Shown piece by piece: positions 52,069 through 56,515 of a stretch of 64,000 bases of DNA (positions within the stretch are counted from its first letter, which is position 1; each line of letters begins with the position of its first letter). This stretch comes from Rhodovulum imhoffii (GTDB lineage Bacteria > Pseudomonadota > Alphaproteobacteria > Rhodobacterales > Rhodobacteraceae): positions 62,001-126,000 of the forward strand of contig NZ_QAAA01000001.1 in NCBI RefSeq assembly GCF_003046545.1, read 5' to 3'. The notes below the pieces were generated by a model, which had not been told where the DNA came from, ran no database searches, and saw only the letters and a list, made by a program, of their open reading frames with translations. Both the position numbers and the translations under genes were made by a program.

Positions 52069-54820
<2,752 letters not shown>

Positions 54821-54840
54821 GGTAGATCTCTTTGGTTGTC

Positions 54841-54910
54841 CTTAGCCGGGCGGCGCGAAGCGGTACCTCTGAGCGGTCGCGCCACTATGGCACGCTCAGA
54901 GGCAGCTAAG
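54841..54910 (-). promoter_or_regulatory. leuA attenuator-like RNA leader
   Basis: In the leuA leader on the minus strand, 54893-54902 pairs perfectly with 54866-54875 (10 bp, stem 1:2), and an outer stem pairs 54905-54910 with 54841-54846. A competing 7-bp stem pairs 54877-54883 with 54852-54858 (stem 2:3). Strand 1 lies in the last codons of the Leu-rich leader peptide, so a ribosome stalled at the Leu run would free strand 2. No U-run follows, so whether it terminates transcription or alters leuA translation is open. Confidence 0.7.
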
Positions 54911-54982
54911 GAGAAGCAGAAGGCCGGACAGGACCCGCGCGGGGCGCGGGGCATCGGGGGAGATATGTCCAGTGCTCATCAT
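54896..54982 (-). CDS. leuL: leuA leader peptide with five consecutive Leu codons
   Basis: A 28-residue frame starting MMSTGHISPD and ending VLSGLLLLLSCL. Seven of the 28 codons are Leu, five in a row (54908-54922) right before the stop, the classic layout of a leucine attenuator leader. The stop codon (54896-54898) lies inside the first strand of the attenuator hairpin. There is no ribosome site; the predicted transcript start lies only one or two bases upstream, suggesting leaderless translation as for trpL of rhizobia. The hydrophobic tail could be mistaken for a lipoprotein signal but the frame stops at once. Confidence 0.78.
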   Translation of the reverse strand: MMSTGHISPDAPRPARVLSGLLLLLSCL

Positions 54983-54989
54983 TGGGCGC

Positions 54990-55017
54990 ACTATATGGAT
55001 CGGGGCCGCCGGTGCAA
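54990..55017 (-). promoter_or_regulatory. Promoter of the leuL-leuA transcript
   Basis: On the minus strand TTGCAC (55017-55012), a 16-base spacer and TATAGT (54995-54990, 5 of 6 to consensus). The predicted start is about 54984-54983, directly before the leader peptide ATG. The -35 lies inside the inverted repeat at 55005-55038. Confidence 0.5.
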
Positions 55018-55043
55018 AGCAAAAATGCAACCGGCGGCTTTTT
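55005..55043. terminator. Inverted repeat after the symporter gene, U-run on the plus strand
   Basis: A perfect 9-bp GC-rich stem (55005-55013 with 55030-55038), a 16-base A-rich loop, then TTTTT on the plus strand. It lies just past the symporter gene stop (minus), yet the U-run faces the opposite direction, where no gene ends. On the minus strand it could act as an U-less terminator. It also contains the -35 of the leuL promoter. Confidence 0.5.
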
Positions 55044-56515
55044 CACCAAACGCGGTGGCGGTCCAGCTCCGGGCGCAGCGCGGTCTGGAAATCCAGCGCC
55101 TCCTCGCGGGCGGGGGTGATCAGGCTGACCCCGACGAAGAGCGCGACCGTAACACCGATGACCGTGGTCGCCAGAAGAGGGTTGAAGACGCTGACGCCGG
55201 CAAAAATCGCCATGTAAACCGCGACCGCGCTGCCCCCGACCAGCGAGGCCAGAACGCCCCATGCCGTGCCCCCGCGCCAAAAGAACGCGCCGATGGTCGC
55301 GGGGACGGTTACCACCAAACCTGCCGCGGAAAGGGCGGCCAGCTGATCTACGATCTGGGCCTTTTGCAGGGCGAACCACGCGGCGAAAACGACCACCAGG
55401 ACCACGATTACCCGGCCAATGAACACCTGGGTCGCATCGCGCCCGGCACCACGGTTCAGCAGGTCACGGGCCACCATCGAACCCAGCGTCAGCGCGATGG
55501 AATCGAGCGTGGACACCGCGGCAGACAGGACCCCGATGATGAGCAGCAGGCTTACCCCCACCGGCACCGCGCCCGAGCCCAGCAGGGCCGGGGTGGCCAG
55601 AGCACTGTTTTCCAGACCCGGTGTCAGCACCAGCGCGGCGAACCCCCAGATCACCGCGATCAGCGTGAATACCAGGCCAAATCCCAGCACCCAGAAAATC
55701 ATCCGCCGCAGGGCGGAAACGTCACGCACCGCGAACAGCCTCTGGCTGACCTGCGGGTTTGACAGCGGAAAGAAAAACCACGGCAGCGCCAGCGCAAGGA
55801 ACGTGGGCAGGGACCACAGGCCCGGACCCGGCACATCCAGCCATTGCGGGTTTGACGCTTTCACCTTCGCGACGAAGCTGTCCACGCCGCCGATGGCCGC
55901 CACCACAAATCCAACGGCAAGCAGCGCCGAGATCAGCATGAGGCTCGCCTGCACCGCATCCGTCCACGCGACGGAGCGAAGCCCGGCGATCAGCGTCCAG
56001 AGAATCGCCAGGACCGCCCCGGTCAGAATGGCCGCGGGCAGGCCGATGTCTCCCCCGGTCACGCCGGACAGCAACAACCCGATTCCGGCCATCTGAGTCG
56101 TGCAGTAGGGCATCAGGAACACAAGACTCAGCACCGCGACCAGCCGCGCGATGGTGCGGTCGCCGTAGCGCGCGCCCAGCATCTCGGCGGGGGTGATGAA
56201 GCCCCATTTCCGTGCCGCCAGCCAAAATCGCGGCCCGAACAGGACCAGAAGTGTCAGACCGGAGAAGTAAATCAGTTCGAAGCCCAGCGCACCGACGCCG
56301 CCGCGATAGGTCAGCCCCGTCAGGACCACCAGCATGAAGGCCGAATAAGTTGTGGCGGCATAGGACAACCCCGCCACCATGCCGCCGATATTGCGTCCGC
56401 CAAGGTAATAGTCATCGGCGGTGCCGGTATTGCCGCGCGCGGCTTTCAGCGCAATCGCGCCGCCCAGCAACGTGAACAAAAGCACCGAGACCCATATCAG
56501 AGTGGGAGAGATCAT
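55043..56515 (-). CDS. Sodium:solute symporter, PanF-like
   Basis: A 490-residue SSS-family symporter with about 13 transmembrane helices. Signature segments are YYLGGRNIGGMVAGLSYAAT, GFITPAEMLGARYG, LSAAVSTLDSIALTLGSM and WTDAVQASLMLISAL. It resembles PanF (pantothenate) and related carriers; the substrate is not certain. A 59-residue membrane protein gene lies immediately upstream, ending 1 base before this start, as in panF-yhdT-type pairs. Confidence 0.85.
   Translation of the reverse strand: MISPTLIWVSVLLFTLLGGAIALKAARGNTGTADDYYLGGRNIGGMVAGLSYAATTYSAFMLVVLTGLTYRGGVGALGFELIYFSGLTLLVLFGPRFWLAARKWGFITPAEMLGARYGDRTIARLVAVLSLVFLMPYCTTQMAGIGLLLSGVTGGDIGLPAAILTGAVLAILWTLIAGLRSVAWTDAVQASLMLISALLAVGFVVAAIGGVDSFVAKVKASNPQWLDVPGPGLWSLPTFLALALPWFFFPLSNPQVSQRLFAVRDVSALRRMIFWVLGFGLVFTLIAVIWGFAALVLTPGLENSALATPALLGSGAVPVGVSLLLIIGVLSAAVSTLDSIALTLGSMVARDLLNRGAGRDATQVFIGRVIVVLVVVFAAWFALQKAQIVDQLAALSAAGLVVTVPATIGAFFWRGGTAWGVLASLVGGSAVAVYMAIFAGVSVFNPLLATTVIGVTVALFVGVSLITPAREEALDFQTALRPELDRHRVW

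Follow-up and report, generated by a model that had tools for sequence, protein, structure and literature searches.

The window, that is, the whole stretch of 64,000 nucleotides of Rhodovulum imhoffii DNA analysed here, carries on its minus strand a gene for 2-isopropylmalate synthase (leuA), preceded by a short Leu-rich reading frame and by an RNA segment in which four helices (A to D) can be drawn. Among the proteins compared, the closest named relative of the enzyme is the LeuA of Rhodovulum robiginosum (88%, very near records possibly having been left out). The features, in the order in which they would be transcribed, are as follows.

55017 to 54990, minus strand: promoter-like element, with a -35-like TTGCAC (55017–55012), a spacer of 16 nt and a -10 TATAGT (54995–54990).
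54982 to 54896, minus strand: leader ORF of 28 codons, MMSTGHISPDAPRPARVLSGLLLLLSCL and stop (ATGATG...TGA), probably leaderless.
54922 to 54908, minus strand: run of five Leu codons (CTT CTG CTT CTC CTT) within the leader ORF, the putative sensor.
54912 to 54905, minus strand: 5' strand of helix A, TCCTTAGC, made of the last Leu codons and a Ser codon (fold, covariation, swap test).
54902 to 54893, minus strand: 5' strand of helix B, CCTCTGAGCG, holding the leader stop codon (fold, covariation).
54892 to 54889, minus strand: 5' strand of helix C, TGCC, at the tip of hairpin B and alternative to D (fold).
54883 to 54878, minus strand: 5' strand of helix D, GGCGCG, in the loop of B (covariation).
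54875 to 54866, minus strand: 3' strand of helix B, CGCTCAGAGG (fold, covariation).
54857 to 54852, minus strand: 3' strand of helix D, CGCGCC, the pseudoknot partner (covariation).
54846 to 54839, minus strand: 3' strand of helix A, GCTAAGGA.
54833 to 54827, minus strand: likely Shine-Dalgarno (SD) region of leuA, AAAGAGA, picked out by direct view.
54820 to 53267, minus strand: leuA, 2-isopropylmalate synthase, above the cut-off of TIGR00973 (leuA_bact).

The gene mreB lies 160 nt past leuA (52072–54820 for the pair, minus strand). Of 80 relatives with flanks of at most 2 kb, 45 likewise have mreB on the leuA strand and downstream of that gene, and this holds outside the family too; genes for cell shape and for leucine synthesis may be co-transcribed.

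The leader ORF ends in LSGLLLLLSCL, with its stop codon at 54898–54896, and direct view of the minus strand gave the same numbers as an earlier note on this DNA: 28 codons, with seven Leu codons in total and five of them consecutive. The promoter read there, TTGCAC-N16-TATAGT, is present, but only its downstream half held up in a 17-row genus alignment (the genus search covered 16 genomes, our own included): the -10 is kept, whereas the -35 as read is unconserved and relatives carry CTTTCC-like letters at its position. The gap between the end of TATAGT and the leader ATG (54982) is 7 nt. Among the 145 leaders with enough upstream sequence, 100 have an in-frame ATG 5–12 nt past a -10-like hexamer, 82 of them at a spacing of 7 or 8 nt, against none of the 48 control loci that have an out-of-frame ATG. 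This conserved spacing suggests that transcription starts at or beside the leader AUG, much as the note had proposed, and that the leader ORF is probably leaderless. A 9-bp inverted repeat (GCCGCCGGT/ACCGGCGGC, direct view) spans the -35 region on the minus strand (55005–55038) and may terminate the transcript of the upstream sodium:solute symporter.

Codon choice within the Leu run is strongly skewed. In 143 of 146 leaders the Leu run closes, four codons before the leader stop, with CTT or CTA, and at positions -8 to -4 before the stop CTA and CTT make up 16% and 42% of the Leu codons; the values for the comparison set, the first 130 codons of leuA, are 0.3% and 8%. Such a bias fits slow decoding and equally fits pairing in helix A. 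As judged from their placement, the regulatory Leu codons would be well positioned for ribosome stalling, which agrees with the original proposal. Since conservation of the peptide lies mainly in its last codons (by eye), a trans-acting role, like that of peTrpL, seems unlikely.

Hairpin B is a perfect 10-bp stem (54902–54893 with 54875–54866) with the leader stop codon inside its first strand, exactly as the note had described it. The competing 7-bp hairpin of the same description fared differently. The pair exists (GGCGCGA, 54883–54877, with TCGCGCC, 54858–54852), but the 5' strand of helix D lies in the loop of B and its partner further downstream, and the helix could form a pseudoknot with B. 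The 3' strand of D lies 8 nt past B (7 nt counting TCGCGCC) and starts 6–13 nt past B in 83 of 87 leaders, a spacing that would suit a loop spanning a 10-bp stem. Helix C pairs TGCC with GGCG, the first four bases of the D 5' strand doubling as the C 3' strand; C and D are mutually exclusive, and B and D jointly amount to a pseudoknot in terms of pairing potential. The key element, overlooked in that sequence-only reading, is helix A, which pairs Leu codons with the segment before the leuA start. In the window, 19 nt separate the end of its 3' strand from the leuA ATG, and the likely SD stays uncovered; the median distance among leaders is 21 nt, and of 83 leaders 14 (the window not among them) have A reaching into the best SD hexamer, the other 69 being without overlap. 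The minimum-energy free fold of the window leader is A+B+C, with a fold energy (z = -2.57) that none of 200 shuffles equalled.

The element is genuine and widespread. At 86 of 95 loci, window included (list read by eye), leuA is preceded by a Leu-rich ORF whose stop codon falls within a hairpin; the nine misses were L011, L026, L045, L048, L052, L064, L068, L075 and L079, and L054 was excluded as truncated. A covariance model (R1), built from 55 Rhodobacterales leaders, detected one copy in our own genome and one copy each in 96 of 100 genomes of the family (E ≤ 1e-4). Across the class, 21 of the 142 genomes drawn had a copy (E ≤ 0.01), and LeuA was directly downstream in all 20 matches besides our own. 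The low class-wide figure probably reflects, at least partly, limited sensitivity, because leader and hairpin were seen at 22 of the 26 loci from outside Rhodobacterales; tests outside the order used 22 of these 26 loci, omitting L064, L068, L075 and L079. At further family loci leuA lies within about 400 nt of the element in 90 of 95 cases, 88 of which show leader and hairpin in a scripted search, and in the remaining five the element adjoins a reading frame like the cupin genes of L026 and L048.

In L026 and L048 the element sits further upstream, before an inserted gene matching Cupin_2, and leuA then follows. A small gene stands beside the leader in both of these and in L153, L193, L199, L201 and L205 (Cupin_2 in the two checked, L026 and L048), and by eye a possible base stem can be traced at the cupin-like gene's own start, with at least 6 bp in L026, L048, L153, L199, L201 and L205, and only 5 bp in L193. 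In L205, for example (GGTTAGGACCCCATG), TCCTAACC pairs with GGTTAGGA, followed by CCCCATG (by eye). R1 also matches further upstream in L011, where a motif scan found no motif. Some other layouts depart from the usual one: about 200 nt separate leader stop and leuA in L043 and L185, the base stem near the leuA start being lost or moved, and in L213 the element precedes a small 72-aa reading frame, with the leuA start further downstream.

The helices were examined on two structure-blind MAFFT alignments. A2 contains 55 Rhodobacterales rows, taken from 70 loci after removal of L011, L026, L043, L048, L052 and L054 (element displaced, absent or gene truncated) and, from the remaining 64, of L006 and L045 (odd), L086 and L096 (near-copies) and L022, L032, L034, L037 and L056 (long inserts). 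A3 contains 69 rows, the window and 68 of 84 relatives non-identical to the first set, over-long and near-identical leaders being omitted. Compensatory changes on both sides affected 5 of the 8 pairs of A, 3 of the 10 of B and 1 of the 6 of D on A2, and 6, 4 and 2 pairs, respectively, on A3. None of 500 shuffles of A2 matched the covariation score and 2 of 500 matched the number of pairs with both-side changes; for A3 it was 0 of 500 on every measure. Paired cells amounted to 99.1% (A2) and 98.4% (A3) for B, 88.7% and 93.2% for D, and 79.4% and 66.5% for A, which is lowest on fixed columns and whose register shifts along the Leu codons. With the A3 partners slid by -1, the both-side cells numbered 40 versus 43 observed, and the paired cells dropped to 39.9% versus 86.5%. 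Replacing D by C on A2 gave a similar result, with 92.3% of the cells of C paired and changes mostly one-sided, and RNAalifold, run unaided on A2, predicted B only. A comparison of leuA leaders across Rhodobacteraceae had been suggested in the earlier note as a check, and the Leu run is kept in most leaders, with covarying stems on both alignments. Attenuation of the trpL type through two competing hairpins, also put forward there, is not supported; what is conserved is a base stem (A) closing B, plus a helix (D) from the loop to downstream sequence.

We also used an alignment-free swap test, in which the own downstream segment of each leader is compared with the segments of other leaders for its fit to the Leu run. 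In the main version, with 108 non-redundant leaders, four 21-nt windows and, as partner, 35 nt of sequence up to a point 3 nt short of leuA, the Leu run gave z = 10.6, a value reached by 0 of 5000 permutations; the three control windows gave z = 2.3, 1.7 and 2.5 (49, 209 and 36 of 5000). The Leu run and the segment before the leuA start coevolve, and we regard this as the main result of the analysis. For 70 non-redundant new leaders the test returned z = 6.0 for A and 7.7 for D (both 0 of 5000 permutations), the control segment pair being above chance as well (z = 3.5); this value and the mildly raised control windows (36–209 of 5000) mean that kinship or composition adds to the signal. When ungapped helices were scored in 42 non-redundant Rhodobacterales leaders, the own value was reached by 0 of 5000 permutations for A, 0 of 5000 for D and 227 of 5000 for the control, and outside Rhodobacterales (19 leaders) the result was weak (150 of 5000 for A and 291 of 5000 for D). 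A version based on duplex energy, now superseded, was weak because GC-rich strands pair with almost anything (in Rhodobacterales, 37 of 2000 permutations for A, 4 of 2000 for D and 138 of 2000 for the control).

A U-run is absent, as first read, and a terminator scan of 54800–55000 found none. From the leader stop to early leuA, a simple scan detected a terminator-like site in 0 of 146 Rhodobacterales leaders and in 0 of 22 leaders from other alphaproteobacteria, which supports the idea, already voiced in the note, that the output step is something other than an intrinsic terminator. The one terminator-like site seen, at 55049–55031, lies upstream of the promoter. The ilvB gene of the same genome (L218, C1 134816–136501 region) resembles leuA in having a short leader ORF, here containing Val, Leu and Ile codons (MGHVLVIFGNRRMGR), and differs in having a terminator-like GC hairpin followed by a T-run (TTTTTTG) directly before the gene; the same genome therefore carries a textbook-type leader elsewhere. 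At trpE neither a Trp-rich leader nor a terminator-like site was found, so that no comparison could be drawn from this gene. No family of Rfam 15 reached its gathering threshold within the window, and a c-di-GMP-II-GAG match near the element (20.3 bits, E 0.15, cut-off 40) was dismissed as chance.

The effect of a ribosome on the leader was modelled by placing a ribosome-sized mask on 146 leaders and computing the cost of opening the leuA start (ViennaRNA, no pseudoknots). Whichever of codons -8 to -4 was masked, the region that begins 28 nt upstream of the ATG and ends just past it became easier to open, by a median of 2.4–2.7 kcal/mol and by more than 1 kcal in 105–111 of the 146 leaders; a control mask further upstream gave a drop of 0.28 kcal/mol and exceeded 1 kcal in 47 of 146. 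When the start region was narrowed to begin at -20, the median fall was about 1 kcal, with more than 1 kcal in 70–76 of 146 leaders (control 36). In the window, the model predicts A+B+C for the free leader, B+C with A open for a ribosome stalled on Leu codon three, and, for one standing at the stop codon, the D hairpin. In the set of leaders, a ribosome in this last position makes the start region accessible to nearly the same extent (104 of 146), and a switch of this kind must therefore rest on ribosome dwell time.

The analysis shows the ORF, the pairing potential of the helices with its covariation, the lack of terminator-like sites, the conservation of the leaderless layout and the skewed codon choice. 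From these data we infer ribosome stalling, open and closed states of the RNA and translation as the output; in our estimate the odds are roughly two in three that this is a cis-acting, leucine-responsive leader acting at the initiation of leuA translation. Transcription would start at or beside the leader AUG. When leucine is plentiful, ribosomes would cross the Leu run fast and come off once they reach the stop codon within hairpin B, and between ribosomes the RNA would close as A+B+C, or as the A+B+D pseudoknot. The closed base stem A would then hold the segment beside the leuA ribosome-binding site (overlapping it in some relatives) and lower initiation. In a shortage of charged leucyl-tRNA, a ribosome waiting on the Leu codons would cover the A 5' strand, the start region would open and leuA would be translated. 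The Leu run would thereby have two roles, as sensing codons and as a pyrimidine-rich strand to which the purine-rich start region can pair. Such a switch could function provided that ribosomes linger when stalled and depart quickly when terminating, a kinetic step that the scheme presumes.

Translation initiation is favoured as the output because A adjoins the first start codon and no terminator was found. The same ribosome could act on transcription instead, the free or closed leader deciding whether Rho, or another factor, ends transcription ahead of leuA or within its first part. This would need no U-run and agrees with the terminator scans, Rho has been suggested for similar actinobacterial cys leaders (PMC1262725), and polarity after poor leuA translation would have the same result; we consider it unlikely, as it leaves unexplained why the A 3' strand comes so near the start codon (its median end 21 nt before) and why the inserted cupin gene, too, allows a base stem to be drawn at its start. 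Control at both levels, with helix A governing initiation and the untranslated leuA mRNA then being cut or terminated so that the RNA falls too, is a frequent outcome of bacterial translational control, and we give it a somewhat smaller chance still.

A more distant alternative is an RNA that binds a protein or ligand, its leader ORF being incidental. The strong conservation of hairpin B and helix D would suit this, and for the actinobacterial element discussed below a regulatory protein was favoured, with mutational results from S. coelicolor cited alongside (both in PMC1262725). Against this, most leaders keep the Leu run, its rare codons and an in-frame start of the leaderless type, and no Rfam family reaches its gathering threshold in the window; we regard such a binding element as improbable. 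Leu runs do occur in hydrophobic ORFs and GC-rich DNA folds readily, but an origin by chance or as a coding-region artefact is contradicted by the presence of the element in 96 of 100 family genomes, by the covariation on A2 and A3 and by the swap test with its control windows, and we give it hardly any weight.

Amino-acid leaders of proteobacteria are usually described as transcription terminators. The abstract of Vitreschak et al. (2004) reportedly deals, for alphaproteobacteria, with ilvIH only, and an earlier mention of leuA in that work is possible. Among the literature matches listed, which covered few subscription papers, we found no description of an alphaproteobacterial leuA leader; the portions available of PMC1273637, PMC4117421 and PMC10117765 mention none, and a term search of PMC4833913 returned no mention of leucine, leu or alphaproteobacteria. 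The element in the window is covered by no Rfam family. With covariation as support, a widespread group of leaders thus appears to use the leader ribosome for control of the translation start.

Of the features of a classical trpL/leuL attenuator, the leader ORF with regulatory codons is present, and the intrinsic terminator with its U-run is absent. In Escherichia coli, leuL precedes leuABCD and encodes a 28-aa leader peptide with four Leu codons, the leader ending in a terminator/antiterminator choice (PMC6123439); our leader resembles it in its 28-aa peptide with Leu codons before leuA and differs in having no terminator-like site. The trpL leader of Sinorhizobium meliloti (rnTrpL) is a transcription attenuator that yields an sRNA and has a leaderless ORF (PMC10117765). 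It shares with ours the leaderless leader ORF, the alphaproteobacterial host and the position before an amino-acid biosynthesis gene; here, in contrast, there is no terminator-like site and the base stem reaches the start region of the gene.

The two leuA enzymes at issue in the remaining comparison differ. The window enzyme is of the leuA_bact family and scores 139.5 bits against leuA_yeast, below the cut-off of 697.4, while actinobacterial LeuA is a protein that we take to belong to leuA_yeast. The actinobacterial LEU element, from another phylum, is the nearest known layout. In the description by Seliverstov et al. 2005 (PMC1262725), a leader with a Leu run precedes leuA, the Leu run pairs with the leuA SD in a base stem, and a pseudoknot and an alternative hairpin stand on that one stem; how the element acts was not settled in 2005, and mutations in the S. 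coelicolor leuA leader had effects inconsistent with classical attenuation. In Streptomyces lividans, LeuL1 is MRFGLLLLSCRGEGL, leaderless and without a typical terminator (PMC8079986), the latter a trait of actinobacterial leuA leaders that ours share.

Likeness concerns the layout only: a Leu-run ORF upstream of leuA, a base stem to the leuA start region, a pseudoknot as pairing potential (D covaries beside B) and an alternative hairpin, C. Among the differences, the leader stop of the window lies three codons past the Leu run, inside hairpin B, and that of S. lividans seven (PMC8079986), and the base stem of the LEU element pairs with the SD (PMC1262725), whereas here 14 of 83 leaders show such an overlap and the window does not. 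Judged by the published description, the match in layout is close; because the SD overlap is found only sometimes, membership is not claimed. A LEU-like layout points to translation initiation as the output. We suggest, tentatively and at slightly less than even odds, that the leuA leaders of Alphaproteobacteria and Actinobacteria could be one kind of switch in two phyla and before two leuA enzyme families (the actinobacterial one presumed): a pseudoknotted RNA in which Leu codons are both the sensor and the strand that closes the start region, and in which the dwell time of the leader ribosome would set leuA translation directly, without a terminator. With a look-alike of the LEU element in Rhodobacteraceae, the question of its mode of action becomes directly testable in laboratory strains.
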